DNA of 64,000 nt, taken from Rhytidiadelphus loreus. Taxonomy: Eukaryota > Streptophyta > Bryopsida > Hypnales > Hylocomiaceae. The stretch lies in the NCBI GenBank assembly GCA_947034895.1, contig OX344764.1:9300001-9364000 (forward strand), written 5' to 3'. The notes beneath the pieces are model-generated. The model was not told where the DNA came from. It made no database searches and saw only the letters and a list, made by a program, of their open reading frames with translations. This document shows, in pieces, positions 3,401 to 44,235 of this stretch; within the stretch, counting starts at the first letter, position 1, and each line of letters starts with the position of its first letter. A program made the translations under genes and the position numbers.

Positions 3401-5528
3401 TGTGATAAGATGATACTAGAGAAAGGCAAAGACAAGGGTGTGACAGAGGAGCTACAGAAAGTTACGAAAGCTGTGCTTGTTGTCAATACAAAACATACTG
3501 AGGATGTTAATCGCAAACCTACCATCTTCAGTTGGTAGTCAATACACATTCACAAATCCTTTTAGTTTAAAAAACCTTCTGTTTCACAAATCATTCTAAA
3601 GTAGAGTCTCCATTAACCTTACAGTACATTAGAGTCTCCATTGACCATACATGTGAATTTTGACTTGAGATAAGTGTGAAAACACTAGACCTCTATTACC
3701 ATGTCCTTTTTTGCAGCTGATTTTTAGATGACGACACAATAAAAGTGCTGTAAATTTTAGATGACAAGCTCTAAATTGTTGCAGGGAAAGCCTCAAAGTT
3801 CACCTGTACAGTGAATGGAACCTCTCCCTTTCTGTATGGGTGAATCGGCATTTCACATTACTTATTCTTGAAAGAGACAAACGCACCATGTTCTGGAGGA
3901 GCTCAAGCTCGTAAGCAGTCATGGGCAGCCTCTCCTGCTGCCTCCTCACCGCCGGCGGCACTGGGGCTCCCGCCCCTCGTCCCGGCGGCACCGTCCTCTC
4001 CTGCGGCCCCCACTCCTCGCCGAGCTCGCCCTCCCACCCGAAATTCTCTGCAAAGGCGCCTTCTTCCCTCGGCCCTTCCCCCAGCACGCCCTCTCCTTCC
4101 GGAACCTGCCGTTGCATCTCCTCAGGATCGAATCCCTGCGCACTCCTCGCCCACTCTTCGTCCTCACCTTCGCCTCGCACCATCTCCAACCGCTCCTGCT
4201 CGCTCCGCGGCATCCCTATGCCTCGGCCTGCTGTGGCTTCGAGAGCTTCTTCGGTGCCCTCGCCCAGGTTGAATGTGGACGCCATGGGGCGGGAAGCAGC
4301 ATTGGGGGAAAGGACGCCTTCAGCTGGAGGGGGCGTTTGTTGACGAGGCTGCACCAATGCAACATGGAGTTCATGGTGGAGTCAAATGGCTACCAGACAT
4401 GAGATTAAACAGAAGTGAAGTCAGATTTCGAAATAGACATTTCACTACATTAGCCGGATTTCGTAAAGAACGTTACCAGATTGCGACATTCCCACTAACT
4501 GCAGTATCTGTATCTGCAAACGGCTACCAAATTCTTGACATGACCATAAGAGGGTCCGTCACGGTCTCCACACGACATTCACTACATTAGCCAGATTTCG
4601 TGAAGAACGTACCAAATTATGACCTTCCTACTAACTGCAGTATCTGTATCTGAAATTGAAGTCTCAGACCTCGTTTCACAAGTTTCAGATACGGATAAAG
4701 TAAACATTTCTAGTAAAAGAGCTCGTTTTACAGAAACGTGATAGATTTCCTAAAAAGAACATTCCAATTCTAACAACTTCTGAGTTCTAATGATAAGTTA
4801 TCGTACAAACCATGGTTTCACAAATGTAGAACATAAGTTATCGCAGACATACACTAGCCACAGGTGGTGATGCTCTACTGACCACAACGAACTCCCATAT
4901 TTTATAATCTAAAATCCCATGTGCAATAATGCCATTCCAGCAACAAGAAAAAACCAAGCAAATACTGAGGTATATAAAACCCACTGACCTGCACCAACCA
5001 CCCCTGCGCATCGTCCGCCCACTCTTCCCCTTCAGGCATGATATCCCCAAACGGATCCCTCCCCACCTTCCTCAACTCCTCCAACCTCTCCACCTCCGAC
5101 CTCGGTCTCCCCAACCCCCTCGTGCTGCTCGGTCCTTCCCCTGCCTCCCCCCACCCATCGTCCGGCGCCCACGCGAACGTCTCCCCGACTTCCCGATCCG
5201 CAATTACAATCGGGGACACCACGCCCTCCGCAGGGGGACGAGGGAGACGCGCTTCGTGGGGGTCGTCTTCGGTGCCGCCCGCCACGCCTTCGTCCCAGCT
5301 GACGAGGGAAGCGCGAGGGGCGCCGGCGCCTCGTAAAGCAGGGGAGGTCGTGGTGGTGGTTGGCCAGGGCTCGTCGTCCTCGTCCCAGGAAGTTGTGGGG
5401 GAGATGGCCGTCTCACGGAGAGCGGGCGCGACGACGCCTTCCACGGTGGGGTTCGAGGGGTCTGGAGCTTCGTTCAAGTCGCCGAGGGTGTCCCAGTCTT
5501 CGTCGGAGTCGGAGCTCTGGCCTGCCAT
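452..5528 (-). CDS. CCDC39: CCDC39/FAP59-like axonemal coiled-coil protein, N-terminal part (gene runs off left edge)
   Basis: Seven exons on the minus strand: 5528-4989, 4348-3887, 2841-2500, 2202-2035, 1870-1745, 1260-1040 and 638-452. All introns begin GT and end AG; most are phase 0 and the last resolved one is phase 2. The last visible donor (GTAAAC at 451) leads into an intron leaving the window. Residues from about 421 (FLPEFANDENRAL, exon 3) match the start of animal and algal CCDC39. Later exons keep its diagnostic stretches: EEHLKTI (exon 4), DDTRIKALRL and LDKTAVEF (exon 6), ERQDVIKQWETT and KRDGEI (exon 7). CCDC39 pairs with CCDC40 to form the 96-nm axonemal ruler that positions inner dynein arms and the nexin-dynein complex. 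This gene is expected to act in sperm flagella. The first 420 residues are an acidic, proline-rich extension not seen in the animal protein. Family identity is strong; assignment of exons 1-2 rests on compatible phases and splice sites. Confidence 0.82.
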
Positions 5529-5895
5529 CTCTTTGGTTGTTGAGTCAATGGGTTTGGGTTATGCAGTGGAATCCGAGTTCTGGTCTGCCGTCTCTTCGCT
5601 ACTCAATTCAATGGGCACTGGAACCCAAGCTCCGGTCTGCCGTCTCATAGCTACTCAACTGTCTTCGCTGGTCAATTCAATGGGTTTGATATATGGTACT
5701 GGAATCCGAGATCTGGGCTGTCATGGTCTTCGCTAATCAATTCAATGGGATACGGGTATAGATTTGGAATGTGAACCCTGGTCTGTCGTCTCTTCGCTAC
5801 TCAAGGCAATGGGTTGCGGTAACGGCACAGGAATCCGAGCTCTGGTCTGCCATCTCTGTGGTACTTAAGTCCACGGGTTACGGTTATGGCACTGC
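5500..5895 (-). repeat. Tandem copies (about five, 70-85 bp) of the CCDC39 start-codon region
   Basis: The bases around the predicted ATG (5528), reading GAGATGGCAGGCCAGAGCTC on the minus strand, recur upstream with drift near 5590, 5640, 5720, 5790 and 5850. Copies share TCTGGTCTGCCGTCTC and TCAATTCAATGGG blocks on the plus strand. The copy near 5852 keeps an ATG followed by GCAGACCAGAGC, so it could be a short upstream ORF. The array lies in the 5' flank or leader. Confidence 0.7.
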
Positions 5896-7056: not shown

Positions 7057-7130
7057 TGCTCCCGGGGGGGCTCGAACCCACGACCTTCGGCTCATAAGAC
7101 CGATGCTCTAACCAGCTGAGCTACGGGGGC
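7057..7130 (-). tRNA. tRNA-Ile (anticodon UAU), possibly degenerate
   Basis: The minus strand folds as a 74-nt cloverleaf. It has acceptor GCCCCCG/CGGGAGC, D arm GCTC..GAGC, anticodon stem TCGGT/GCCGA with loop CTTATGA, variable AGGTC, T arm GTGGG/CCCCC with loop TTCGAGC, and discriminator A. Internal promoters are intact (box A TAGCTCAGCTGG, box B GGTTCGAGCC). The anticodon reads TAT, that is Ile for AUA codons. There are two mispairs, 3-70 (C.A) and 50-64 (U.C), so this may be a decaying copy. No CCA is encoded, as expected for a nuclear gene. The nearest T4 run on the transcribed side is about 28 nt downstream. Confidence 0.75.
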
Positions 7131-11605: not shown

Positions 11606-11702
11606 GATTTTTACAGGGTTGTCATACCGGACGGACGTCCGGTTCGCCCGTCCGATAGAGGTCTCACCCGTCCGATGTGGTCAACACTAAAGTTGACTTT
11701 TT

Positions 11703-12415
11703 TTAACCCTTAAAGGACCGTCACTATGTTTTCACCAAAAACTCTCTAAAACTGTCATTTCTAGTACAACTACCAAAATTTTGATAAAAAAAACTTTTTT
11801 TGACATATCTAACCGTAGGATGTTGTATTATATAGTATCAAAAACTTGTGGTAAAAATTTCAGACATTTCCACCAGGTGGATTGCAAGATATAAGCATTC
11901 AAAATTTCAAATTAACTAAAATCATTTTTTTGACCCTGCGAAAAGCAAGGCAGCTGCACTTCACAAGCTCACATTTCTATGAAAAAATGACCTAAATGGT
12001 GGTGCTTCTTTGGATTTGTTTTCCTAGACAAGTTGGCCACATGCTTGAAAAATTTCAGATCATTTGGAATAGTACAACATATAGGAAAAAAATAGTAAGT
12101 AGGTAGTACTAGAGAATGATTAAAAATACTAAATTATTTACAATTTAAATATGGAATTGAAAATTTACAATTCCAATGGTCGAAATGTTGTAATAATGTA
12201 TGAACATCCTATAATTTTATTTTTGTCCAAAAATATTGAAAATTGGATAAGATAAAGGATGTCAAAGTTTATTTTAGAGTAGGAAATCCAAAACTGCCCG
12301 CAAACAGAAAATCCTCATAATCCTCATAATTTTTTACTCATTGATCAAAACTGAATGATTCTAAGCTTTTTGCCTTTTTTTGTATATCAAACTCTAAAAA
12401 ATCAATTTCAAATCT
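11703..12415. mobile_element. TTAA-bounded element, truncated copy
   Basis: It starts TTAA + CCCTTAAAGGACCG and tracks the reverse complement of the copy at 38835-39742 ('CTAGTACAA', 'CACCACGTGGATTGCAAGATAT'-like, 'CTCATTGATCAAAAC') until about 12415. There the similarity stops short of any GGGGTTAA end. It sits 90 bp inside the left end of the giant hAT. Confidence 0.55.
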
Positions 12416-12654
12416 AATTAGTTGTTTGCTACTTTGTTTACTACACATTCACAAATTCACAGAAGTCATACAACTGTCTTGATGGAAGAAAGACCAAATT
12501 GCATATTACAAGATTTTCACCATATGTCCGTATCTTTATGTATGAAATGTGTAGCAACCATGAAATACACATGCTTGATGCTCTTCTAACCAAAAATGTG
12601 TGGTCTGCCTATAAAACTATCACATACTAGAGCTCAAAAAGTAAAAACAATATA

Positions 12655-14235
12655 TTATGTACGATAACAACAGTCGGGCATAGTCCAACAGTGAGGTGCC
12701 TTCCTCAAAGTGTCTAGAACATCAGACACAGATGCCCTCTCGCCTACATCTATTTTCTGGAGGCTCAGTAGTTGAATCCTCAAATGCTGATACTGCTCTG
12801 GGTTTTTGGTCGTAAAATACTTTGGATCCCACTCTTCTTTCCAAATTTGATATGCTATCCATCCAGTTGCATATGCATCAGCAGCCATGGAGTAGAAGTG
12901 TTTTTTCTACATGACTTCAAGTGAGGTCTCTGATCCCTTCTCTCCATACATGTAGAACAACTCAGGGGCTGCATGTTTTCGTTGTTTTTTCTCCCGTTGG
13001 AGCTCCTCCATGGTTCGATAACCATACCTTGATGGCTCCTTCTCTACAACTCGACCAGAAAGCCCCCAATCGCAAATCCCAATGTACACTGTGTTTTCTT
13101 TCCATTCATCAAAATGGAGCAAAACGTTGGATGGAGTAATGTCATTGTGTAAATATTTTGCTTCATGACATTTTCCCACTATGACAAGCAATGATAAAGC
13201 CAAATTCACGCGGTTTCGGCGATAAGTTGCAACCCAACCGAGTTCTTCCTGCGTCAACCCTGCATCATGTTGTCTCGTGATGTCATCCACATCCAACGAT
13301 TCACTCACTTTTGAGTTGTACTTGGCCAAGAAAGAAATCAAAGACCCTCCATTCCACCATAGCGTATAGCCTTCCATTGTTTTTGGATGGATGTACGCAA
13401 GTCTTACGATACCAGGATGTATCACTGGACACCCCCCCACCTCGCTTACAATAGCTTGGCGCTTCTCCTTCTCATTCGAGGTCTTCAAAGTCTTCCCGGC
13501 GAAGCAAATCCAACTGGGAATGCTTTGTAGTCTCGTGAGCACCACCTTCCTCACAGTCCCATATGATCCAGTCATAGTTTGATTCGGCATGGGATTCACT
13601 TTCACGCAACTTTCCAACCACTTGAATGTTCCGCTCACACAATGAGCTCGTATTTGGTCTTCAAGCGTCGCTTTCCATGGTGCTTGTTTCTTTCTACGCG
13701 AGGAAGAAAATTGTTGGGAGAACTTCTGAATTTGGTACAATCTTGAACCAAATTCCTTGTCATGCGTGTCCCAATCACTACCATCATCTTTCTTCTTTGT
13801 GTGATAACACCAATTCGCCACAATATTGGTGGTCAGCTGCGACACTTGTTTATCCAACCACTCAGAGTGCAACCAGTAATCTTGATAGTTGTTGAATCGT
13901 TCGGATGCTCTAAATTTGGTCTCCAACTCTCGCCGCACTTCAGCATTCAACTTGTGGTACCCTTCTTCGTTGAAATTCACGTATTCTCTGCACATCATTC
14001 CCACACTTCGTTGCGTGTAAAAATTGACCGCTATTGCTCTAGCCTCGAGCACATATTCGTGAGGGGGCATGTCAGGATTGGATTGGTTTTTACGCTTCGA
14101 CCTGTTGGATGATGAGGGATTGGATGACCCTGAAGTCCCTGACACGTTCGTGGCTGGAGGCACCACCTCAAAAATTTCATCCAAGTCTTCAAACACCGAG
14201 CGGTGACCCGATGACCCACTCCCATGTCCTGCCAT
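12655..14235 (-). pseudogene. Transposon-borne protein kinase, interrupted by one in-frame TAG
   Basis: From ATG 14235 the frame is open for 442 codons, meets TAG at 12909-12907, then continues in the same frame to TAA at 12655 (about 526 residues). The kinase domain is clear: glycine loop GSYGTV (223-228), lysine in FAGK (248), catalytic loop HND..PSN (363-370), DWG metal site (389-391) and APE (423-425). After the stop comes ADAYATGW, matching the subdomain IX helix. Catalytic Lys, Asp, Asn and Asp are all present, so the ancestor was probably active; DWG instead of DFG is unusual. The first 220 residues (Ser-rich, then helical) match no family I recognise. The TAG removes the C-lobe helices, so the protein is inactive unless read through. 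A TATA box lies about 175 bp upstream in an intergenic region shared with the RING gene. Confidence 0.75.
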
Positions 14236-14407
14236 TGTACAATATTTCGGAACCACCAAAGTTTCGGAGAAAATTAAAAAAAACGGGTGCTATATGTGGG
14301 CCAAGCCCAATCACCCATCAAACTCACTTCCAAAGGTCGCTTGCGCAAACAAAGGTGTGAGGCGTAGGGCGTGGACTTGGCAAAGGAGAAATGAGGGATC
14401 CTTTGGG

Positions 14408-14605
14408 ATTTATAGTCCCCGCCCCTCCCACGTCCGCGCCCTGGCCCGACACGTCCCCGCCCTGGCCCGAGCCGTCCCCGCCCCGCCCGAGACGTCCCCG
14501 CCCTGGTTCGGAAACGTCCCCGCCCTGGCCCCAGACGTTCCCGCCTTGACAGACAAATTTGAGGACTATAAAAGTCCGTCCCCGCCCCATTAGTCCCCGC
14601 CCTGT
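14408..14605. promoter_or_regulatory. Candidate bidirectional promoter with GC-rich GTCCCCGCCC array between kinase and RING genes
   Basis: About ten copies of a (G)ACGTCCCCGCCCTGGCC-like motif lie between two outward-facing TATA boxes. TATAAAT on the minus strand (14414-14408) serves the kinase gene; TATAAAAG on the plus strand (14567-14574) serves the RING gene. GC content is far above the surroundings. The same motif family recurs at 19780-19900, 20955-21090 and 25620-25680 in the same element. Confidence 0.6.
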
Positions 14606-14695
14606 GTATTCCAAATCCTCCACCTCTTCATTGAGCTGGTCGTTGGCATTGTGCAGGGCCTTACAGTATACAGGTTTTTGCCAAAAAAATTCACG

Positions 14696-17061
14696 ATGGC
14701 GACACCACCAAGAACCAACAAAGCTGAACGAGACAGGACTCGACTAAGGTCGGGTAACAAACATCAGAAGAGGTTACATGTACTTTGAAACCCCGAAAAA
14801 CTTGCATTTAGGGGCTGGAATGACATGCGAGAACCGTGGAGTTTTGAAACTTGCATCACTTACATAGAATGGTGCCACATTGACAAGGCCTTCCCTGAGG
14901 AGCGACATAACTACCACCGCCGATTTCATAAAGCAAATTTGAAACACTACATCGATGAGGCCTTTAAACAAAGATGCATCGAAGTATACCAAGTGTTATA
15001 CAAAAAAACCACTGTGAAAAGGAATGACATTCACCTTTTCATTGCACGAGGTGTACATATGGAGGTGAGATTGAACAAGCGGGTGGATTGGTCCACTTTG
15101 AAGGGCACGCCAACCACAGCAGATGGTATCAAGATACCAACACCAGCAAATGGAATGATTCCAAGGGGGGTTATGAGATATCCCGAAGGAGGGCTGGGCA
15201 GGGTCAACACACGTATTGAGCCGCCTAATACATATGAGACGGCGGATTCTACTACTGACGATGACTCTGATGGATCTCATGTTGTGGTGGAATTAACCCC
15301 CAGAGGACAACAACGTGCACAAAGGAGAAGGGTGCAAGATGCACCTCGTGAACAACTTCCAGAACCAAATATTCGTGTAGAGGTCCAGGGCCCCGTTGAA
15401 CCAGTACTTGGAGTTGCTCAAGCGCAATTCCAAGCACCTGATGAACCAACTCTTGGAGTTGTTGATGTCATGGCTGCTGCAGACACCATACAAAGCTTGA
15501 GGGTGCAGTTACAAGACCGAGGTGATGAACTACATTCTCTATTTGAAGATGTGGACAAGTTACGAGAAGAAATCACGCTCAAAGACAGAGTAATTGCTCA
15601 ACAAGCACGTGACATAGAGGAGCTTCGGCAAGCTCTACAAGCAGCACAAATGATGCACAAAGGTCAAGATCCACGAGGACATGCACACGGACCTCCTCGG
15701 GATTCTCAAATTCCGTTTCAAAATGCTCCAGGTGATGCTGCCATGTCTACACAAGAAGATTCATTGGCCTTTCCCGAAGTAATTGCCACCGGCAACGTAC
15801 CAATGCAGACTGAAGTTCGGGGCATGGTTATGGACAACAACCTTGAGCTCAACAACTTGCAAGGCGAAAATCAAACATTACAAAATCATTTGCATGCCTT
15901 GGTGGAGCAGTATTACCAGTGGAAGTCGGCGTGCGTGTTCACCGTTGACAAGACACGACAACTGGTAGTAGAGTTCAAAAATTTGGACCACTACTACAGT
16001 GAGCACAATCAAGAAAGGGTGTTTGGCTTGACTTCATGGGCCCTTGTGGATGATCTTTTCAGTCCCAACATGGCAATCATTGAGCTTGATGGTGGAAAAA
16101 CAATCATTGATTGGTCCAAACACAATTGGGATTTCAAAACCAACTTGCGTCGAAAGTCGACTACAAAGGCAACCCGTTGTTGGAGTGGCCAAATCCTTCA
16201 AGTTTTGTGCACGACGGGACCACATGTCCCATTTGTATGAATCCATTTGGCCCTGAAGGTGGAATGCAGTTGGGCACGTGCAACCATGTATACCACCCAT
16301 TTTGCCTCATCAGTTTCATGATTGTTCGTCGTCGGTGCGCAATGTGCAAGGCTCCCTTCCATGAGCGCTTGTACGAGTTGTTTGGCTTGGTCCCATACAT
16401 GCCACCACATTGGGAATACAATGCCACGAATGCCCCAGATCACCGTAGAATGTGGGGAACAGACTTGGTGTGGAGTTGGAAATTACAAATGACATCGTTG
16501 GACAAGACACAAGTCGCTGTTGAATGTGGTTGGGAGACTGACCCCGATCAAATTGTCCAAGTCTGCCACCATTTGATTCCGATGAAAGACAAGCATAGCC
16601 AAGGACATCGGAATTTTTTCTTTCAATGCTTCAATGGACATTGGGACGAGGTTGAACTCAAGTTTCAATTTGGACCTCACCCTCGGCGATGGTTATGGGG
16701 CGTTGATGGAGTTCGAGTCACCGATGACATTGGAATTCGTATTGGGGAGGACCCTGACATGCCCGACCCCGCGGAGCTTACTCAATTATCGAAATCTGAG
16801 TGGAGGGAAACTTTCAGAAACGAAGGGCTGGATTTTTTGCTTGAACAACATAGCCCGGATACACGCCGAGCTCTGGAGAGTCTCAAGCAATCACAAATCA
16901 TGAGGGCCATTCTAGAAGAAGACGGACCAGCAAGGAGAACTTGGTCTGCAGTTCGTAGAATTCAACTAGGCTCCAACGAAGATTTTCTAATGCAAAGCGG
17001 CGCACACGACGACGAGGTTGGACCTAGTGGCACTGCAAACAGTCCAATGAACATCAACTGA
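14696..17061 (+). pseudogene. Transposon-borne coiled-coil / RING-finger protein, with one stop and one frameshift
   Basis: The likely start is ATG 14696 (MATPPRTNKAERD..). The frame meets TGA at 14786-14788, stays open to 16240, and a one-base frame change near 16125-16165 joins it to a second frame that ends at TGA 17061. A TATA box lies 120 bp upstream. Order of parts: basic N-terminus; a conserved-looking segment (from 14825); a Pro/Glu-rich linker; a heptad coiled coil at about 15480-15650 (IQSLRVQLQDRGDELHSLFE..); and a RING-H2-like finger at 16225-16347 with CPIC, CNHVYHPFC and CAMC. A C-terminal domain of about 230 residues follows (ECGWETDPDQ, FGPHPRRWLWG) that I do not recognise. 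RING fingers of this spacing usually make ubiquitin ligases; ligase activity here is inference. An intron instead of a frameshift is possible, but I see no convincing GT..AG pair. Confidence 0.65.
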
Positions 17062-17740
17062 GTGCATTTTTTAGTGTGCTAAACTAGTAATTACTAATTA
17101 ACAAAGCATGTTTTGCATATACAGTTATAGACTTTGGCACTTATCATTACCGAGGCTTATAGAATTGCTACTTTGGTAGTTCGGTACTACAAACAGTATT
17201 AGACAAAGACTTGTGGATATGCATATTTTATCGTGGAAAAAGTATTGTATACTTTTCAATTTTTGTACTACATGATGCATATGAAATACATATATTCAAT
17301 TGTTGAATTCCTTTGCATGATATGGCATGTGTGATATGTGGATATAATAATGTACTCATGGCCTAAGAATAAGTGCATTTCGGATTTTGAGTGTATGAAG
17401 GTATATATTCATGTAAATATATATGTATTAATATTATTGTATGTGTATAAAAAGATATTAACAATTTAACATTAATGTATATTTTGTTACAAATATATTA
17501 ATGTTAATGTATGAAGGGATACATTAACCTTTGAATGACTTGATCCATCCAAAAATGGTAAAATTTCTTATTTTAGCTTGAATAACAATCAGGTATTTTT
17601 ATTGCTTAAAACTTTGAATTCTATATCATTTACAGAAATTGCAATTTTGTTCGCGAATGTTTCTAATTGTAATCATTTCTAACTTTCTATTGCAGAAAAT
17701 CAGCATATAATCATATATGAGGAAAAAGAGGAAAACAATT
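17062..17740. other. 3' flank of the RING gene inside the giant hAT
   Basis: AT-rich sequence without ORFs, with several TATATGTA/AATGTATATT tracts around 17400-17520. It probably contains the 3' untranslated region of the RING gene. Confidence 0.35.
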
Positions 17741-18514
17741 CAATCACCCCCCTAATGACATTTTTTCTGTCTAAAAACAATAAAAACTGCCATTTCTACT
17801 ACATTGTCCAAGATTAAAAAAAATTCTATTTTTGAAACTGAACCATAGGATCTTGAAATTTACTTGCTTGAAATTATGTGGTTAAAATTTCATGAAGTTA
17901 GACCGTACAGATTGAAAGATATGACTATATGAGCATTCAAAGTTTAAAAAACAAGTTTTCTTCAACACTAAACTGCAATTTTAGATGACTTTTATTGCTA
18001 TTTGTAGAAAAAATGTATACTATGGAATTTGAATTAAAAATTTATTGTGTTGAAGAATTGAGTTGGGAGTCTATGAAAAAAAATTCAAAAAATAACAACT
18101 TCATTTTCATTCTTCAAGAAATTGTCAAGTAGAAGTGTAGAACTATAGAAGCACGTTCAAAATTGAAAGAAAAACTAAACAATTAATAGCTCTTAGATGG
18201 GATTGAAATACAATAATCCCAATGGTGAGATTGTTCTAGCAAACAAACATAACCTTTTAAAAAACCAAAAATCTGAAAATTGCATTCTAAAGATTCAATT
18301 TCTTTTGCTGCCCACCGAATTCAATTCTACGCATCTTGTGGTATAACTTCGGCTTCCAGGCACCGATTGAAATAAAAATTATATTCCCACAAAGTTTATT
18401 ACATTTTCTATCTTCAAAAAAAGTTTTGCAAAATTAGGATAAAATTTCAGCCCATAGAAACCTGCCCGAATTCTAAAGTGTCCCCTAAGGGGACAATGGG
18501 ACTTTAGGGGTTAA
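17741..18514. mobile_element. TTAA-bounded element, 5' end degraded, nested in the giant hAT
   Basis: The right end is GGACTTTAGGGG + TTAA (18511-18514), preceded by a CCCCTAAGGGGACA palindrome. The left end is degenerate (TCACCCCCCTAATGACA). The interior matches other family copies ('CTGCCATTTCTACTAC', 'GACCGTACAGATTGAAAGATAT'). Confidence 0.55.
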
Positions 18515-19550
18515 TTTGAAATTTTGGGGGGAGGTGCAAGTAGTAATGGAGGTGAACCAAAAAAAAATCCAGTTGCTTATTTTATTTTTCACACAAAAGA
18601 AAGCCACATCAAAGTATCAAATAAGTGAAACAACTTGAAGTCGAATTCCATCTTGACGTCCTGAACTTGAAGTTGAAACCAAATGAATCCTTTTACGTAA
18701 TTGATATACAAAATTTATATACATTTTGCTAGTCCTCCGATAATTTTTCTTCTTATTTTTTGTTTTTACAATAATTTAGGAATAAAAGTAAAATTATTCT
18801 GATTTCTTAAAGGTAAAGGTGGAAATAAAATTATATGAATTACAAAATATATATTAGAGTAATCCATAATTTGTGTTGTAAGCCTGTAAAGTGTAAAGTT
18901 TAAATTAAGAATGTAGGGTGGAATTGTTTTGGGAAAGTTGTATTGTTGTAAAAATGTTGAAGCATGTAGTCATGTACTCATTTAGCCAACTTGCCATGAA
19001 GAATGAATTCATAGAATAACCACCATTTTCTGCCTCCACCATTCATCATCCGAAATTCTTATAAGCTAAAATTTGAACAGTCAATATTTGTTATAATTAA
19101 TTACACACATCCTACTATCCTAAATATAGTAGGATATTTTTTAGTATGCTTCTATAAAAAAATTCAAATACATTCCATACTTGCTCAAATTTTCTGAAAT
19201 TGTTATCATTGAATACCCCAAATTTCCATACTTGCTCAAATTCTCTTAAATTTCGTTGAAACATTTCTAAAACCTTTCTTTTTGGAATTCCAAACCCTTT
19301 TAGCTTCTATTTTGGAGAACTATAACATTCATCCTTTAAGTCTTCAACTTGAATTTTCAAAAACGAGTACCTTGTTTACCGTTACAAATCCTAAAACTTC
19401 TAGCATCTTATTATATTTGTTTTCTTGAAAGTGTGCAAGTTAGTTTTAATTCTCTAGAAATCCCATTTTTGGGGTGTGGGGACTATTTCTCAAGTCCTTG
19501 GAGAAGCGAAGAAGACCAAGGGCGATACATGAAATGAGACACATCTTTCC
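18515..19550. other. Non-coding AT-rich interior of the giant hAT
   Basis: No supported gene. The phrase CATACTTGCTCAAATT is repeated (near 19179 and 19228). Confidence 0.35.
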
Positions 19551-20935
19551 ATGAATTCTCTTTCAACTCAAAAAGTAGTTGGACTTCTTAATACAGCCAT
19601 TGACTTCAAGAAATTCCCCGAGCTCAAATTAATGGTTGACTGCATTAATTGGTTTTCCTCTTTCCCTCTCTCCATGGGAAGGAAGAATCCCATGCTAATT
19701 TCAAATCTCAAGGTCAATTCCATTCCCCCCCGTCGTTGGTGCAGAGAGTTCTTGCATCCGAGGGTTAGGGCATGAACGTGTGGACGTCAAGGTGTGGACA
19801 TCCCATCAGGGCGGGGACGTGACGTCAGGACGGGGACGTGAAGTTAGGGCGGGGACGCTAGGGCGCAGACGTCCCGACAGGGCGCGGACGTCTGGGCACG
19901 GATTCCAATTCCAATTCCAATTTTGAACCCAGTCTTGAACTCCCTCCTTGAACTCCCTCCAAGCCAATTTTGAACTCCCTCCAAGGGTTTGCTATCCCCA
20001 TACCCAAAATAATGAGATGAACCGTTGCCCTTGAATTAAAAAATCACTTAACTAGTATTTCATTTCAATACCCACCCCTCCTAAGTCCTAGACTTACTTT
20101 AGAGTTTAGAGCTCTAGGATCCCATTACACAAATTAGAGGGTGGAGTCTAATGATTGAATATTTGAAATCATAAACAATTTTGCTTCATTTCATTCCCAA
20201 AGATCCAAACCGCTTTGCTATCCCCATACCCAAAATAATGAAATGAACCGGTGCCCTTGAATTAAAAAATCACTTAACTAGTATTTCATTTCAAAACCCA
20301 CCCCTCCTATTTTACCCATTACAAGAAATTTTGGTTAAAGTCTTTAAGCCCTAAATCCTTGTACCCTTTTTTCACGGAAAAAACCCTTTCAAGCATATTC
20401 TAAAGCATTATGATTTGTATTTGATTTAAATCCAAAACCTTGTAGCTTTGTATTTAAAAAATGAAGACTTAAACCAAAAGCTTGAGAAGTATACGTTGGT
20501 AATAGTTTGATTTGTAAACTTCAAATCCAAAATCACAAACACCTTTTCTTAATAAGAATGAAATATAAACTTTGAACTTGAATTTAAACAATTATGTACC
20601 TTGACTTTCATTAGGACTCGAAATCCTTTGGGATTTTAGTTACACAAATTTAGTCTTTCTTGTTTGGAAGTTCAATTTCATTTTCTATTTTTATTTTGGG
20701 TTCCAACTTTACATGGGTCCTACTTCTCAAGTGCTTGATGAAGGCAAGAACTTAAAGTTTGGCCTCAAGAAGGGAGTGACATGCTTTAATACGTTGTCAT
20801 TGAACTCAAAAAGTAGTTGGACCTCTTAATGCAACCATTGACTTGAAGATATTTCCCGTGCTCAAATTAAGAGCTAACTACATTAGTTGATTCTCCTCTC
20901 TCTATGGGAAGGAAGAATCCCACAACTGAATACAT
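19551..20935. repeat. Duplicated upstream region of the transposase gene inside the giant hAT
   Basis: A block of about 135 bp at 19565-19700 (CTCAAAAAGTAGTTGGAC .. GGGAAGGAAGAATCCCA) recurs at 20805-20930. Each copy is followed by a GC-rich motif array (19780-19900 and 20955-21090). Between them a second block of about 100 bp (GCTATCCCCATACCCAAAAT ..) is repeated at 19988-20080 and 20217-20310. The promoter-proximal region therefore appears to have been copied in tandem. Confidence 0.6.
19780..19900. promoter_or_regulatory. GC-rich motif array (GGGCGGGGACGT type), upstream copy
   Basis: Six or more copies of GGGCG(G/C)GGACGT-like units in the orientation opposite to the 14408-14605 array. 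No TATA box directly follows it, unlike the arrays at the three genes. Probably the older half of the duplicated upstream region. Confidence 0.5.
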
Positions 20936-20954
20936 ACCTAAGTCTATGATAGGA

Positions 20955-21105
20955 CCTCCGCGCCCTGCCGTCCAGGAACGCGTCGCACCAGGGCGTGGAC
21001 GCATCGCTCGGGGCGTGGACGCGTCAGAATTGTGTGACGTCCACGCCCCTGACGTCCCTGCCCCTGCAAAAGAGGTCCGCGCCTCTGCACTCCCAGGCTA
21101 TAAAG
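20955..21105 (+). promoter_or_regulatory. Candidate transposase promoter: GC-rich array plus TATA box
   Basis: GGGCGTGGACGC and GACGTCCCTGCCCCTG units in both orientations run to about 21090 and are followed by TATAAAG at 21099-21105, 250 bp before the transposase ATG. The layout (array, then TATA) matches that of the kinase/RING promoter. Confidence 0.55.
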
Positions 21106-21354
21106 CCAAGCTTGTCGGATTGACTTCTTTACATTAATCATCTTGGCCTCATCATCTTGGACTTCAATTCACTTTGAGCTCCTTGGGAGTCTACTTGGGT
21201 GACAAATGGCCCTAGTTAGCTGTTGAGGTGATGTAAAAGTCAATTCAAGCAGTTGATTGGCGCTAACTACTATTTTGTCCTTTTCATTTGGTGTAATAGC
21301 CTCTTCTACAGTTCTACCTCCTCCAAGAAAACGTTTGCATTGGTCGTGAACGCA

Positions 21355-24300
21355 ATGGGAAGTCAACGAAAGCAAACAAAAGAATGGGAACCGTGGTATA
21401 ATTTCTCTGAGAACGGGGGTAAAGTGAGTTGTGTATTTTGCAATGCAACATTCAGCTATAAACGCGAGCACGCTTTTGCTCACTTTGGATATGGCGCGAA
21501 GTCCGAGAGGTCAATTTGTCGTAATGCAACGCGAGCCGTGCGCCACCGATTTGCAAATTGTACAAACTTTGTTCCTCAACGGTTGAGCCCCGAGGACATG
21601 TATGAAGGAGAATCAATTCCCACTAGTCCATCAAGAGCAACTCCAGTTGCAAGTTCAAGCCAATCCTTTCAAAACGAAGTGACTGGAGGGGGTTCAGGTG
21701 ACGCCCAAGCTAAAGGGGTTACTCTCCCTGAAGGGAATGATGCAATATAGAGGTCCCAAAGTCTCGCTGCATCAAATTCCACAAGATTTGGGTCATTACT
21801 TCAGCAACGTATGAAGGATGCTTTTAATGTTGCGAAGAGGAAGGAGTTGGATGACAAGTGGGCATCATTTTTTTACGAGGCGAACGTGCCATTTAATGAA
21901 GCAAGAAATCCAGCCTTTATTGAGGCAGTGAGGGCAACCTCAATGGCAAGGTTTGAATACAGTCCACCTTCTTACCATCAGTTCAGGACAAAATTGATTG
22001 AACCGAAGAGGTTGCAGATCGAGAAGCAAATTGAAACCAAAGTTGGTTTTGCAGTGAAACATTATGGGGTGACAATATGCACTGATGGCTGGGATGACGT
22101 GAACCGGAGGCCTCTAATGAATGTAATGATGTCGTGCCCTACCGGTGAGGTATTTTTGGGGGCCATTGACACCACCGGGCAAAACAAGTCCATGCGCTAC
22201 ATAGCGGACCAAATGAAGGTATTCATTGAGGAAGTGCGTTCAAAGTACGTGACACAGGTTTGTACGGATAATGCAGCGAATATGCTTGGAGCATTGGATG
22301 ATATTGTTCGCACGTATCCACACATTTTCAAGCAGGGGTGCATGGCACATGCTTTGGATCTCATGTTGGAAGATTGGGCCAAAATACCAGAATTCAAAGA
22401 TTTAATTTAGAGGGCAAGAAGATTGTGCCAGTATATTCGGAACCATCACACGACCATGTCGGTATTCCGGGAGTTGAGTCCAACCCTTCAGTTAGTAGTG
22501 CCCAGCGAAACCCGCTTTGCTTGTAATTTTCTCATGTTGCACCGATTGGAGAAACTTCGCGGAGTATTGCTGCGGTTAAAAGACCATGCGCGCGTTCAAA
22601 ATTACTTTGATGGTCTGCGAGACAGACAAAATGCGAAGCAAGCAGCTACAGCTTCACGTAATGTGGTGTCAACTATCCAAGACGTGGGCTTCTGGCAACG
22701 ATGTGCAAATTACGTGCACATGACTGAAGACGTGTTGAAGGCATTGCGCATATTTGATGGCCGAGAACTAGCTATGGGTCGGGCGTGGCTCGTAATGCAC
22801 AATTTGAGAGCCCATGTGTTTTCTTGAAGAGGGCCCCCCTTCAACCTACGAGATGACATAGCCACCACCATGGAGGAGTCTTTCACATCCAGGTGGGACA
22901 TGGTGTTCACGGATGTTCACTATGCTGGGGCCCTTCTAAATCCGTATCTCTTGGATAACGTGGCACTTAGGGCTGATGGAGTTGCCCTTCGTGCATTGTA
23001 TTGAGTCATCCGCAAAATGGAAAATGTAGTAGGTGTGGAGTTTAACAACGTGTTGGCGGAATTAACAGAATTTGAGGAGGGCACAGGGCCATACAGTGCA
23101 GCAGAGACACCTGACATCCGAGCGACACAGATGCTTCCTCACCAATAGTGGCATAGGGTTGGAGATTGAGTACTATCTAAGATTGCCGTTCGTATCTTGT
23201 CATTGACGTGTTCAGCATGTTCATGTGAAAGGAATTGGAGTATGTATTCATTCGTCCACAACAAGGTCCCGAATCGGTTAGCCCCCGAGAAGGCTGAGTC
23301 ACTGGTATATATTTATACCAATAGCCGTGTACTTCAGCAAAGACCAGGGGCCGATCTTGTTCGTTGGTATGATGCTAATATCCTCTCGGAGGACTCTGAT
23401 CCAGATGCCCTTGGCCCTGTTCCAGTGGCTGAACGCAATCGTGAATTTGACGCGATGGTAGCTGAGGAAGAGGAAGAGGCTGATGTGGAAGCTAACCGAG
23501 CACCCCGAGAATACCGACCAAATCTAGAGTTGTGGAGGGCGGGGGCTGATCACCTTGCAGAAGCTAGAAATTACTACGGAGATGGTCATGAAGTGGAAGA
23601 GGAAGTCCTCCCTAGTCGTTGGGGCCCTTGGGGAGCTGATCCTCGCCGAAGTCCTACACCCATTGGCGATGAAAATATAGTTGTTTCTGAAGTGCAACCT
23701 TTGTCATTGTCTTCTGAGAGTGATCACCCGGCCGCAGTGGACGTCAATGATGATAATGTTATCTCGAACAATGACGACAACCTCCCTTTGGAAAACGAAG
23801 GGGAAAATGGAAATGGCAGTGAGAATCTGAGGAACAATGCAACTCAGAATACTGAAGGATCTGTTTGCGATCGTGATGGCATTAGGGGGCCCAGAGGAGT
23901 GGAGGGCCGCGATAGCAACAGAGTTGTTGGAGGACGCCATGGCCAGAACATTGGAAATACAAGGATGGCACGACCGATCACAAGACATGTTGTGGAGGTT
24001 AATGTAGTGGGAAGAACGCGTTTTGACCTTGAACATTTAGATCACAATGATGTTTTTGCGTTTACTGACCCGCTTGAAGACGAAGCCCATATACCACCAC
24101 CAGTTGCAGTGCATACTATTATTTCTAACCCTTCATCTTCCGCAACTTCGAGTGCTCCTTGTCGACCTTCCGAAGAAGTGCTAGGCTCAGTGGAAAATGT
24201 TGCAATGATGCCTCAAAGCATTTCAAATGTTACAACGGGTGGTAGACACCGTACCGCCCTTCAACCCGCAATTCACCACACTATGGGTGAATATCAACAA

Positions 24301-24837
24301 GGACGTGGAAGGAGTTTCGTCTGTGGAAGAGCAAGAGGTCGTGCAACGATTGGAGGCCGTGATATTAGAGGTGGACGAAACAATAACGAAGCGTCGTCAT
24401 CGAGGCCCCCTAAACGCCCTCTTCTAGGAATTGGGGTCCAAGACCCGAACGTGGTGATAGAGCCATTTTTTAATACATATGTCCCAGGACCAACTTTGTC
24501 CACTCTAGCGTATGTCGTTCCTCGAGTATAAGGAGTCCCCATTATAAATTCTGACGCGGAGGACCCTAGAGCTCAACGGCACAAGAGGTTTAAATGTAAT
24601 CGTAGGCATGGTCAACCAGCTGTGGAGCTTCGAAATGAGAACTCGGAAGTGGAAAACCAGTGGACCACAAACGGTGACGATGGAGAAGATGAACGTGGAA
24701 CTAGTGAAGTTGGTGATGATGAAGACGACCCTGATTGTGATGAGGCACCAGCAGATGATGATGTGGTCATTCGAGATGTTGCATTACCAGATCCGGATAC
24801 ACAAGAAGTTCGCAGATCAAGTCGTTTCAACAATTGA
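21355..24837 (+). pseudogene. hAT transposase (BED finger, DUF659, hAT dimerisation) with long C-terminal extension, seven in-frame stops
   Basis: A single frame from ATG 21355 to TGA 24837 spans 1160 codons. It is broken only by stops at 21748 (TAG), 22408 (TAG), 22825 (TGA), 23002 (TGA), 23146 (TAG), 23167 (TGA) and 24529 (TAA); no frameshift is needed. Domains: BED-type zinc finger (CVFC at 26-29, His 43, Cys 55); DUF659/RNase-H-like core with CTDGWDD (Asp 244), CTDNAAN (Asp 305) and CMAHALD; and a hAT C-terminal dimerisation motif CERNWS (Glu 625) followed by NKVPNRLAPEKAESL. The two Asp and the Glu fit the DDE triad of hAT transposases, which cut and paste DNA at 8-bp targets. Residues from about 660 to 1160 are an acidic, then Arg/Gly-rich (GRGRSF, GRARGRA) tail beyond the usual end of the family. 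This copy cannot make full-length protein without readthrough. Confidence 0.85.
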
Positions 24838-25619
24838 GGGGCACCTGACAGCATCTGTGTTCTATAGACCTTCATTCATCATGAGTTCAAGACAGTTGCA
24901 CTAATTGAAACATGAAGTAATGAAGATCTACAAGAAGAAGAAGGAGAATCTTAGATAACCAGTAGAAGAGGAGGTGTATCTTGAGAGCAGTATATTCATT
25001 GTGTTGTGAACTTGTTATTGTACTGAACAACGCTTGAAATATAAAAATGTTTTTGGTTATCTAAAATAAAAAAGTTTCCAATTGTGTTTGTAGAATTATC
25101 ACATTTGCCATGCATGAAGATGACATTCATGAGTGTAGTTATATTGTATAGTTTGAATGTTGTAAGTAAGGTGTACTTAATTTATTACTATCCTTGCATT
25201 CACGTAGAAAAAAACATTCACTACTATCATCTTTGATGCCTTCCGAAGGGCTGAAAAATTGTTATTTAAACATGAAATTCTTTTCACAAAATGATCTCTT
25301 TGCTAATAACATGTGTGCTAAATTTCAAGGCCAGAAGATTTACACATAAAAAGATATTCACAATGTAGCAACATGTGTACTTGTGTGGTTCAGAGAAACA
25401 ATTTCAATGCTACTAAGTACCAACTCCCAGAAATTGAGAAATCAAAATTCGGCCATGAATTTTTTTGGCATGAGATCATGTCTATGTTGATAACATGTGG
25501 GTCAAATTTGAAGTTCAAAGGATTTGCCTATAAAAAGATACTGGAAATGTTTTTCACCCTATGAAAGCAAGAATTCGTAAATGAAGTACAAAAATTCTAC
25601 AAAAATTCGGATTAAACTG

Positions 25620-25770
25620 ATGCGTCCCCGCCCTGTCCAAGACATCCCCGCCGTGACGGAAACGTCCGCGCCCTGATTTCAATGTTGGAAAATTTCAAAA
25701 ATGAAAGGTGTCCGGAGCGTCCGGAGCGTCCATCCGTCCCGTCCGATCACTCCGACCCGTCCGGTATGAC
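25620..25770. repeat. Right subterminal motif array of the giant hAT
   Basis: GCGTCCCCGCCCTG, ACATCCCCGCCGTG and ACGTCCGCGCCCTG units at 25620-25680 repeat the promoter-array motif. They are followed by GTCCGGAGC and CCGTCCGATC units leading into the terminal inverted repeat. Likely transposase-binding sequence. Confidence 0.55.
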
Positions 25771-25785
25771 AACCCTGGATTTTTA

Positions 25786-27110
25786 ATCCTAATTGGAAGG
25801 CTGAGTGATGGTGAGGCCATGTAGTTCCAATGTGGTAGATTAATTTTGCAGTTATTCTAAGTGGGGTAGTTAGCTTTGCGGTTTGAATCTGGCAGTTTGG
25901 GAACTGCCGCCTAGCTCCTATTAGATTGTCTTTCCCGATTTGGTTTGGACCCATTGTTGCAAGAAGCCAGTGTGAGTCCTAGCCAAGTTGTGCTGTGTAT
26001 TTGGTTTATTTGTGTGTGTCAAGCAGTTGCTTGAATGTGTGTTTTATGTTGATTGTGTCCAAGTTTGTTGTGTTAAATGATGAACTGTGGAATTTTTAGA
26101 ATTCCAAGTTGGAGAATTTGTTTAATACCAAAGCTTACAGGCTCATTAGGCGGGTATTAGTGAAGGAAATGGAAGTGATTGATTCCAAATTGGAAAGCTG
26201 AGTAGTCAACTTGTCTGTTTGGAGTGGTGTGTGTCCTAGTTGGAGGACCGGAAGATGGAAGGATGGTTTTATGTCCCAATTGGGAAGTGTGTCAGTGAAG
26301 GAATTAATCCCTAATTGGAGGAGTTGCACATTGTTGAAAATACTGTAGAGTGTAGAGGAGATTTCTGAAATCAGATTGAGTGAAGTTTATAAGCTAGAAA
26401 TTTCGTAATGATTAATGCTAAATGGTGAAAAAATTGAAGTGATAATATCCAATTTGGAGTAATTAGATGATGTAGTTTTGGAGTGTATCCAATTAGTTTA
26501 TGAAAAACATAAAATTGTAAACAGTGATTTAATTGTCAATTCAGTAATATGATATGAGTTCAAACCGAATTGTTGCGTGTCTGTATGAGAATGTATTCCA
26601 AGTCGGGGTGTTTGCTAACTGTGGTTGCGTATGTGTGTCCAATTTGGGTCTGTGATGTTACTTGCACGTGTATGTGGAATGCATAGTATCTTGAGGCCTT
26701 TTCCAAATTGGTTTGGTAAAGTTTGAATGTTGTCTGATTCGGATTCCTAGTTGGTCTGTAAAGCAGTGATTGAGCTTAAATGGAGTCAGAATATATTAAA
26801 TGAAGTAAACCCAAGTTGGACTGTAAGATGTGTCTATTCTGCAAAAGGGAGAATTTAGCAAAAATATGTGAAGTGAGAGAAGTTAGATCCAAGTTGGTGG
26901 CAGAAGATTCTCTGGTGGTTGGGAAGGCTAATAAGACCAAAGTTGGTAGCTAAAGCTATGAGAACCAATTCGGGAAGATTAAAGGCCAAGAAGACTACGA
27001 TGTTGGTGAACCCAATTTGGAAAAGAATTGAAGATTGAAGAATCCAACTTGGGAGATAACTTACCTTTGTGGTTCTTAAGAGTGGAGAGAACCAAATTGA
27101 TTAATTAGAT
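25786..27110. repeat. Internal CACTA region with dispersed CCAANTTGG motifs (right of the hAT insertion)
   Basis: More than fifteen CCAAGTTGG, CCAATTTGG or CCTAATTGG-like motifs at intervals of 30-100 bp (e.g. near 25788, 26101, 26187, 26275, 26449, 26811, 26889, 27010). Short minus-strand ORFs here are by-products of the motif. No gene seen. Confidence 0.55.
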
Positions 27111-34478: not shown

Positions 34479-35106
34479 ACTTGCAAGAAATTAATTCTCT
34501 TAAGTTCTATCAATAAGTAGACAAATATCGTCCTATTCATTAGAAAAATATTAAAAGCCACAAAATGTCACCCTTAGTTTGGTCCCTACTTCAGTTTTCA
34601 TTTTTATAGATTTTATTTGAAGCTTTATTCAAACTTTCATTTCATTTCAAATGACAAGAAGGCATGATTGCAAGCAATCTAATGACATTTAGTTGTCTTC
34701 TACTAAATTGAGGTTTAGATCCTTTGAAAAATGAAGAGGTCAAAAGTTTTTTTACATTTTCATATTATTTATATTTTAAAATAGGACATTATTACCGTGG
34801 AATTTGACAATGCAAGTAGGAACACAAAGTTGTAGTAAATTTGTTCATAAACTTAATTATTACATTTACATGAATGACTTTTACTTTATAGGGCACAACT
34901 TTTACATTTGTGAAGAAAATGACTTTTATTTTTTAAATTATATATATTAAGGAGTTATTTTATATTTGCTAGTATTCAAACCTCGATTCAAACTCATTAT
35001 TCTTTACCTAAAAGTCAATTCCTTATTAGCATAATAGACTAGTTGATTAGTAGGAGCCAATTGCAAATAAAAATAAAAACAAATCCTCTTAAATACGCAA
35101 ATTGGA
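34479..35106. other. Upstream region of the quinone oxidoreductase-like gene
   Basis: AT-rich with no gene. TTAAATAC near 35090 lies too close to the ATG to be a convincing TATA box. Confidence 0.3.
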
Positions 35107-35109
35107 GTG

Positions 35110-36210
35110 ATGATGACCATGAAAGCTGCACAATATTCTACGTATTATGATGGACCATTAGCACTTGAGATTGTAGATGCATTGCCAGTGCCAATACCAA
35201 GTGAAGGAGAAATATTGGTGAAGGTTGAATGTAGTAGTGTCAATGCAATGGATTGGAAGATTCAAGGTGGGTTAATGAAGCCTTTCCTACCTCAAATATT
35301 TCCCCATATTCCCGGTACTGACATCACTGGCAAGGTGGTCAGCATTGGACCAGGGGTTGTGGATTTTGTCCCGGGTGACAAAGTGATTAGTTATTTAGAT
35401 TTATCTAAAAGTGGTGCATATGCAGAGTATGCACTAGCACTAGTAGCTTCAACTGTAAAACGACCACATGATATGAGTCCTGAGATAGCTGCATCATTGC
35501 CAATGGCTGGTATGACTGCCCTTCAAAGTGCTATTGAATTAGTTGGGCTCAAGTTTGATGGATCAGGACCTAAACTAAATATTTTAATCACTGCAGCTTC
35601 GGGAGGAGTGGGTATGTTTTGGATACAAATTGCAAAACTTGGAGGTTGTTTTGTGACAGCTACATGTCGTGCTCATAATATAGACGTTTTGAAGGTGCTT
35701 GGAGCTGATGAAGTATTAGATTACAAAACCAATGAGGGGAAGAGTTACAAAAGTCCTTCTGGGAAGAAATATGATGTAGTAGTGCACTTGGCATCATACC
35801 AACCAATGGAAGCTTTCAAATCCCAACTCACAAAATCTGGCATGGTCATTGACATGTTTCCAACTATGAAGACTTGGATTCGAAATTGGTACAATAAGGT
35901 TACATTTTCAAGGCAAAGTTTTGTACCGTTTATGCTAAATTTTGAAAACCTTGATTATTTGCAAACACTAACAGATTTGGTAGAATGTGGCAAATTAAGA
36001 ATTGCTATTGACTCTGTATTTCTTTTAGACAATGCTAGCAATGCTTGGGCAAGAAGCATCAAGGGTCATTGCACTGGGAAAATTGTCTTAAGTATGAAAA
36101 GACCCATGCTAAGTAATGAAGAAGAGAAGATCCACAAGAATAAGAAGTTTTGGGAATCTTTAGAATTACTTCAAATTGGTATACCAACTAGATTGTTAGT
36201 GGAGGAGTGA
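35110..36210 (+). CDS. NADPH:quinone oxidoreductase-like protein (zinc-free MDR family, ceQORH type)
   Basis: One uninterrupted exon of 366 codons from ATG 35110; a GTG lies just before and another in-frame ATG (MKAAQY) is at 35119. The protein starts MKAAQYSTYYDGPLALE and runs through an N-terminal GroES-like fold (NAMDWKIQGG, HIPGTDITG). The Rossmann domain has the zinc-free MDR nucleotide motif AASGGVG, then GADEVLDYK and PSGKKYDVVVH. It closely resembles the plant chloroplast-envelope quinone oxidoreductase homologue, which reduces quinones or enones with NADPH. Zinc ligands are absent, as in this branch. About 25 extra residues at the C-terminus (EEEKIHKNKKFWESL..) go beyond the usual end. 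No transit peptide is visible. All diagnostic motifs are intact, so the copy may be functional. Confidence 0.88.
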   Translation: MMTMKAAQYSTYYDGPLALEIVDALPVPIPSEGEILVKVECSSVNAMDWKIQGGLMKPFLPQIFPHIPGTDITGKVVSIGPGVVDFVPGDKVISYLDLSKSGAYAEYALALVASTVKRPHDMSPEIAASLPMAGMTALQSAIELVGLKFDGSGPKLNILITAASGGVGMFWIQIAKLGGCFVTATCRAHNIDVLKVLGADEVLDYKTNEGKSYKSPSGKKYDVVVHLASYQPMEAFKSQLTKSGMVIDMFPTMKTWIRNWYNKVTFSRQSFVPFMLNFENLDYLQTLTDLVECGKLRIAIDSVFLLDNASNAWARSIKGHCTGKIVLSMKRPMLSNEEEKIHKNKKFWESLELLQIGIPTRLLVEE

Positions 36211-43837: not shown

Positions 43838-44235
43838 TCAGTTGACATTATTCTCGACAAAGAGACAAATCGAATAGCAAGCAACTAAGAACAACCTGCC
43901 CAAGGAAGGGAAAGCATGGGAGGGTCAACTTCATAAACATCAGCTTCCACATTAACAAGAGGCAATGACAGCAAGGAAGCGCTGAGGCAACCCAACCTGC
44001 AGACTATTTAATCGGTATAAATTCGCATAGCGGGTAAAAAAATCATTTGACATTATTCTCTACAAATAGTCAAATATTGAAACAAGTCACTACCAACGAC
44101 CTCCCCGAGGCAGGGAAAACAGGGGAAGTTCGCTTCATTTGTTTAGTTTGTCATACACATCAACTTCCATATTAACAAAGACAATGACAGCATGGAAGAG
44201 CTGCGGCAACCCTATCTGCAGATTATTTAATGTAA
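43838..44235. repeat. Tandem duplication (about 205 bp) of the 3' end of the DUF632 gene
   Basis: The stretch from TTGACATTATTCTC to CTGCAGA.TATTTAAT (43845-44010) is repeated at 44047-44230. The right-hand copy contains the last 30 codons and stop of the DUF630/DUF632 gene; the left-hand copy is a decayed duplicate of the tail. Confidence 0.65.

Follow-up and report, generated by a model that had tools for sequence, protein, structure and literature searches.

Kinase and RING-finger genes as probable residents of a large multi-gene hAT transposon lineage in Rhytidiadelphus loreus

Do a protein kinase gene and a RING-finger gene that lie between the ends of a hAT transposon belong to that transposon? 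This question is raised by a 64,000-nt stretch of the moss Rhytidiadelphus loreus (GenBank assembly GCA_947034895.1, contig OX344764.1, positions 9,300,001 to 9,364,000 of the forward strand), called the window in the following. A preliminary description of the window, made from its letters alone, had marked positions 11614-25777 as a hAT element that carries both genes besides its transposase. We find that the window copy is one dead member of a family (family I) of multi-gene hAT DNA transposons of about 14-15 kb. With a probability of about 0.82, we consider the kinase and RING genes to be resident genes of an old lineage of large multi-gene hAT elements, represented by family I and a second family (family II), in which they form a co-regulated helper set.

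The ends and genes of the window copy are as follows (position 1 is the first base of the window).

11606..11613: left target-site duplication GATTTTTA (direct reading, empty sites, split of the own locus with an 8-nt overlap)
11614..11634, plus strand: 5' terminal inverted repeat, 21 bp, starting with CAGGG (CAGGGTTGTCATACCGGACGG), complementary to the 3' arm
12655..14235, minus strand: protein kinase gene (Pfam PF00069), one in-frame stop at 12909
14696..17061, plus strand: RING gene with a conserved N-terminal 'WCHIxKxFP' region, a coiled coil, a RING-H2 finger and a C-terminal region
16225..16347, plus strand: RING-H2 finger C-x2-C-x14-C-x-H-x2-H-x2-C-x10-C-x2-C (sequence, Pfam, profile match)
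21355..24837, plus strand: hAT transposase gene (DUF659 and hAT dimerisation region), seven in-frame stops
25757..25777, minus strand: 3' terminal inverted repeat, 21 bp, complementary to the 5' arm
25778..25785: right target-site duplication GATTTTTA (direct reading, empty sites)

The inverted ends, which had been described as perfect, are indeed 100% complementary over 21 nt (11614-11634 versus 25757-25777), and the supposedly identical 8-bp flanks read GATTTTTA on either side of 11614-25777. Pfam searches of the window frames likewise bear out that a hAT transposase, a kinase and a RING gene lie between the same ends. For the transposase, DUF659 and Dimer_Tnp_hAT are found with E-values of 1e-33 and 5.9e-6, and the respective entries (PF04937, PF05699) score above their cut-offs both in the window frames and in the full-length 1,194-residue frame of copy L044. 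PF00069 in the window kinase is also above its cut-off (1.3e-8). That is, the element shows the 8-bp duplication, the short inverted ends starting with CAGGG (i.e., of the (C/T)AGGG type) and a transposase with dimerisation region that mark hAT membership. All three genes of the window copy are damaged, each judged against another natural copy. Beside the stops given above, the RING gene has a stop at 14786 and a 1-nt deletion near 16136; elsewhere it forms a stop-to-stop frame of 809 codons. In undamaged natural copies, the kinase frame comprises 526 codons when counted from its first ATG; copy L011 is one with an intact frame.

We studied the mobility of the unit within the window's own assembly (407 Mb, five large contigs). 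The search with the 5' end gave 1,609 candidates at first look, 40 of which were scored, and all 40 (the window's own among them) match the first 187 bases of the element with 97-100% identity. The 3' end was sampled in 20 of 30 fetched kinase loci, picked for a transposase match downstream at a plausible distance. The 3' repeat is at the predicted spot in 18 of these 20 further copies, where 16 show an exact 8-bp duplication and 2 a duplication with one mismatch. Two more copies were read whole, one of which has the exact duplication ATATTTTC. In total, both ends were inspected in 23 copies including that of the window. The duplication is exact in 18 of them, differs at one position in 2 and is missing in 1, and for 2 no 3' end was found at the expected place.

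The site of the window copy can also be compared with unoccupied versions. Its right flank (25786-26250) belongs to a dispersed repeat of low copy number, of which there are six other copies with 88-92% identity. As a query, we joined the two flanks of the window copy with a single GATTTTTA. At six paralogous loci, the match to this query runs through the junction without a break (88-93%), whereas the locus of the window copy itself matches in two pieces that overlap by exactly 8 nt. These six loci are empty sites of the insertion, as the preliminary description had suggested looking for. Ends, duplications and empty sites thus establish that the whole unit is mobile. A chance assembly of the unit is excluded because copies throughout the genome share ends and gene order, in addition to the six empty sites.

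The linkage of the three genes in family I was evaluated on 82 kinase, 82 RING and 80 transposase loci. The kinase loci derive from 102 matching rows, obtained by scoring 92 of 1,148 candidates, after merging split pieces and excluding two copies at 49-70% identity (C5:41154259, C2:83085342). The RING loci derive from 127 rows without 41 family-II rows, two diverged ones (51 and 59%) and two second pieces, and the transposase loci from 150 rows without about 70 at 49-53%. All linkage counts rest on the matches listed, such that a partner outside of these may exist. A RING gene divergent to the kinase is found within 12 kb for 73 of the 82 kinase loci, compared to a mean of 0.15 and a maximum of 2 for random placement. 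RING and then transposase follow in the expected orientation within 12 kb for 50/82 kinase loci and within 60 kb for 72/82, i.e., for 22 further loci both partners are 12 to 60 kb away. The median spacing is 3.2 kb between kinase and RING and 9.0 kb between kinase and transposase. The preliminary description had named as confirmation that several elements share the ends, the 8-bp duplications and the order of the three genes, and this is what we find (exact duplications in 18/23 copies, ordered genes at 50/82 loci). Copies lacking both genes, or the genes as host loci, had been named as evidence to the contrary; none was seen among the scored matches. In particular, no separate host locus for kinase or RING was found among them (for the kinase, 92 of 1,148 candidates), and hence no source from which the genes could recently have been copied, as gene-capturing (Pack-type) transposons would require.

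At 44-45% identity, the RING search gave at least 41 further matches, which constitute family II; many of them have frames near 843 codons. With respect to its 5' region, 39 of 39 further copies start no more than 10 nt from a common CAGGGTTGT end, and the flanks of six family-II loci that were cut out differ. Since copy L070 is apparently incomplete (it seems cut off past about L070:7956, where the similarity to L080 stops), the whole family-II element was read from a different copy.

C5:18407972-18430730: family-II copy read whole, 22,759 bp, with the exact duplication GATGCACC on both sides

Its order from the 5' end is RING, a RING-less paralogue (opposite strand), kinase (opposite strand), a second RING-less paralogue and hAT transposase, where the RING-less paralogues correspond to the N-terminal region of the RING protein. 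Compared to family I, the kinase is 37.6% identical over the kinase domain and the transposase 47% identical over 202 residues. In this copy, the kinase is split over two frames and the transposase has in-frame stops. Both genes are repeated in the genome, with at least 90 scored matches for the transposase and at least 129 for the kinase (each 95-100%, query locus included), and 75 of the 129 scored kinase matches provide stop-free frames of 534-536 codons.

Linkage within family II was computed from the 41 RING, 129 kinase and 90 transposase rows of the matches listed. For 42/90 scored transposase loci, an opposite-strand kinase is located upstream at a distance of at most 12 kb (random mean 0.18, maximum 2), and for 21/41 listed RING loci, an opposite-strand kinase is located downstream (random mean 0.09). 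A transposase is within 25 kb of 14 of the 41 listed RING loci, 9 of which have both kinase and transposase. The preliminary description had regarded kinase and RING protein as transposon cargo. Both genes do belong to the element, but since genes of these kinds recur in a second family whose transposase is diverged, mere cargo understates their status, and we consider them resident genes.

Among the matches listed for the family-I transposase, about 70 show about 50% identity, and their frames reach 1,155 codons. One of them (frame 1,074) is located in L083 (C1:26157000-26164900; L083:6972 onward) and represents a further, compact hAT family, where an end CAGGGTTGT (also given as CAGGGTTGTCTATCCGG) is about 0.7 kb ahead of the transposase. 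Beside the family-II RING copy L071, a DUF7869 gene (L071:2189-4507, minus strand) has at least 59 scored genome matches, many with frames of 960-990 codons. We rejected it as a second transposase of family II and regard it as a neighbour, as its 59 matches are not near the other listed family-II RING loci; the DUF7869 family looks like another, uncharacterised mobile element family.

A metagenome/genome protein database contains relatives of all three proteins (E-value of at most 0.001): 48 kinases with 25-73% identity, 28 RING proteins with 42-75% and 22 transposases with 29-58%. For the kinase, we aligned 28 sequences (27 of the 48 database matches and that of the window; 26-74% identity to the first sequence). 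The ATP-binding Lys, the Glu of helix C, the H and N of HND and a later N are invariant, and both catalytic aspartates (HND and DWG variants) are kept in at least 90% of the sequences. These catalytic motifs are also present in the window's copy, which thus has the motifs of a eukaryotic protein kinase. The AlphaFold model of the kinase (mean predicted local distance difference test score, pLDDT, of 80.6) shows a kinase fold past residue 225 and helices ahead of it. A Foldseek search with this model gave many kinases, of which the 50 listed are all distant (13-20% identity), and sequence profiles reach distant kinases only, e.g., CaMKII and VRK1. Among bacterial genome contigs, the kinase profile found three short weak matches (29-37%).

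The finger of the ubiquitin-ligase-like RING protein provides the C3H2C3 zinc ligands of RING-H2 E3 ligases; the nearest solved structure by profile match is RING finger protein 24. The N-terminal region that the RING protein has in common with its RING-less paralogues was also modelled, but with a mean pLDDT of 50.8 this model was poor and discarded. Matches of the respective alignment to solved structures are uninformative for this region, i.e., they cover mainly profile positions beyond 430, with a RING in one row only. In 19 aligned transposases, two Asp near 'DGW' and 'CTDNAA' as well as the Glu of 'CERNW' are invariant or kept in at least 90%, which may correspond to the acidic catalytic triad (D, D, E) of hAT transposases.

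When relating the database sequences to the two families, the identity of the RING relative P0007 is 73% with family II vs. 44% with family I, and the kinase relatives P0044, P0049 and P0050 show 45-48% to family II vs. 34-38% to family I (over different lengths). The closest kinase relatives are mostly nearer to family I by identity. This suggests that both lineages predate the genome under study, as some kinase relatives and one RING relative sit nearer to family II and most of the closest kinases nearer to family I. Within the genome, two diverged kinase copies at C5:41154259-41155533 (49%) and C2:83085342-83086877 (52-70%) are perhaps remains of further kinase-bearing families. For the kinase relative P0063 and the transposase relative P0097, both from metagenomes, the longest contig is listed with 6,480 bases in either case. 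This may be a single contig or a coincidence.

The genes of an element also have short sequence motifs in common. For family I, we counted the motif CGTCC[C/G]CGCCC with at most one mismatch and used block shuffles of the element as background. We find 20 sites in the element and none in the other 49.8 kb of the window, while the shuffles yield a mean of 0.33 and a maximum of 3. The sites are arranged as follows.

14414..14602: motif cluster between the divergent kinase and RING genes, 8 of 20 sites, tandem repeat with period 21
19809..21063: motif clusters upstream of the transposase, in both orientations, 10 of 20 sites
25623..25673: subterminal motif copies at the 3' end, 2 of 20 sites

When allowing for two mismatches, the rest of the window shows 9 sites, which is near the element-shuffle mean of 4.17, and we thus use the counts with at most one mismatch only. 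Two other family-I copies that were read show similar clusters. Family II has a motif of its own, GGGCGAC[T/C]GCGGGT, with 70 sites in L070, L080 and L081 (at most one mismatch). Its clusters precede each of the five genes and are also found near the 3' end, while there is no site in L071 and none in 100 shuffles each of L080 and L081. The motifs are not exchanged between the families: the exact family-I motif is absent from L070, L080 and L081, and the family-II motif from the window's element.

Based on the arrays, we infer that a DNA-binding protein encoded by the element, most simply the transposase, may read them and switch the genes together. Binding of such a protein would tie the expression of the genes to the activity of the element. 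A VANC-like anti-silencing protein is an alternative reader of the arrays. Once co-expressed, kinase and RING protein could act as a two-step mark-and-degrade pair, i.e., the kinase would phosphorylate a target that the RING protein would subsequently ubiquitylate. In this way either a host silencing factor would be removed, or the level and activity of the transposase would be set; both kinds of target had been considered in the preliminary description. Judged from the sequences, the odds between host counter-silencing and transposase control seem roughly even, with a slight lean to the former. The most specific version of the proposal, that a giant hAT lineage encodes a phosphorylation-ubiquitylation system directed against silencing, run as a regulon by family-specific arrays that its own protein reads while each family evolves its own motif, is tentative, and we consider it possible rather than probable.

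Several observations weigh against kinase and RING genes as functional residents of one element lineage. With respect to the element as a unit, the 3' end is absent from the predicted spot in 2 of the 20 sampled copies, and copy L041/L042, in which both ends are present, lacks a matching duplication. The Pfam scores of the finger (zf-RING_11 4.5e-6, zf-RING_2 1.4e-5) are both slightly below the curated cut-offs. The 7.9 kb fetched on the upstream side of the L083 transposase contain neither a kinase nor a RING gene, such that not every relative seems to need them. Linkage of kinase or RING to the transposase was not seen directly in other organisms. Furthermore, we compared 30 family-I kinase copies with a mean pairwise identity of 97.95%. 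Their singleton changes (134 non-synonymous, 66 synonymous, 12 stops) give an omega of about 0.96, and their shared changes (61 non-synonymous, 31 synonymous, 7 stops) one of about 1.05. With omega about 1, the family-I kinase appears to be under no purifying selection after insertion, although such a neutral pattern is expected, since dead copies of a burst would give it.

The preliminary description had also proposed to look for an intact copy. Single genes are intact in separate copies: among the other copies listed, at least 8 provide full-length stop-free frames for the kinase (544 codons), at least 7 for RING (809) and at least 5 for the transposase (at least 1,201). None of the eight stop-free kinase copies, however, pairs with a full-length stop-free RING frame among the copies listed, such that an autonomous family-I copy cannot be asserted for this assembly.

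Among the alternative explanations, the strongest grants that the genes are residents and differs in their target. Here, the two proteins would target the transposase or transposition complex of the element itself (activation, nuclear entry or dosage limit) instead of host silencing. Their genes' linkage to the transposase in both families and the motif arrays that they have in common with it suggest a common timing, which favours such a role. In contrast, the compact relative L083 seems to be without them upstream, and the transposase of this clade may manage alone. We put this explanation not far below an even chance.

It is improbable that the two genes are chance passengers, i.e., host genes that an ancestral element captured and that were copied along without use. 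Cargo capture is common in plant transposons, and the neutral drift of the family-I copies would fit such an origin. But the same kinds of genes are kept in two distant families, whose gene orders differ and whose transposases share 47% identity over 202 residues. Moreover, catalytic residues are kept across kinase relatives only 26-74% identical to the first sequence, motif arrays precede both the kinase and the RING genes, and no separate host locus is among the scored matches.

If the unit were a large integrated element of viral or virophage-like kind with hAT-type ends, this would account for several genes including kinase and RING and for a length of 14-23 kb. We consider it very unlikely, as no capsid, polymerase or packaging gene was found among the frames searched with Pfam and a search of viral contigs with the kinase profile gave no relative. 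That independent insertions, nested or side by side, came to lie between a single pair of hAT ends can practically be dismissed: nesting does occur in this genome, as the 22 kinase loci with distant partners indicate, but order and spacing are constant in many copies, duplications and empty sites bound the whole unit, and the linkage counts across the 82 kinase loci refute this explanation. Resident genes of an old multi-gene hAT lineage hence stay the reading that we prefer.

The neighbourhood of the element in the window contains further features. Positions 3800-5736 are GC-rich with long open frames on both strands, and two adjoining minus-strand frames therein have a repeated segment in common, from '(P)RSE.ERLE' to 'EEWA..AQG'; one frame of this region was tested in Pfam without a match. 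ARAGORN predicts, under bacterial settings, a tRNA-Ile with anticodon TAT at 7057-7130 (minus strand). Host-type genes are located at 35077-36210 (plus strand) and 44135-49779 (minus strand), with a zinc-binding dehydrogenase and pieces of DUF630/DUF632; DUF630/DUF632 are plant proteins and mark the genome as plant-like.

If the preferred reading holds, this repeatedly amplified hAT lineage is a case of cut-and-paste transposons that bring along a support system of several genes. Kinase and RING proteins would then be handles on how DNA transposons escape or tune host silencing, since their substrates are identifiable, and the element families are open to an immediate survey in other plant genomes.

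In usual descriptions, hAT elements are lean and have a single gene. Kinase and RING genes in a hAT element were not found in the open-access literature that was covered (subscription papers and preprints were outside the scope). Large mobile units with genes beyond transposition needs are known as giant eukaryotic transposons (PMC6431247). That review mentions a planarian Gypsy-like retrotransposon with a RING zinc finger, and a whole-word search of it gave neither 'hAT' nor 'kinase'.

Plant DNA transposons that combine a transposase with an accessory gene are MuDR (mudrA/mudrB) and the CACTA element En/Spm (TnpA/TnpD), whose TnpA binds iterated subterminal motifs. Unlike the elements studied here, they belong to other superfamilies and are not known to have a kinase or RING gene. 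Family-specific short motif arrays in non-coding parts are likewise found in VANDAL21, where the element's own accessory protein VANC counteracts host silencing. This likeness is one of analogy: VANDAL21 is Mutator-like, and its VANC protein belongs neither to the kinases nor to the RING proteins.

The closest comparison is with maize Ac/Ds. Ac is 4.6 kb long with a single transcript, and its transposase binds the iterated subterminal AAACGG (PMC3260210). The lineage described here has the 8-bp duplication, the short inverted ends, the hAT transposase and an iterated short subterminal motif in common with Ac/Ds. In contrast to the single-gene Ac, its elements span 14-23 kb with three genes in family I and five in the family-II copy, and the motif is found ahead of genes as well. 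That is, the lineage is hAT by duplication, ends and transposase, and stands apart from the hAT elements known to us in its size and in its resident kinase and RING genes.

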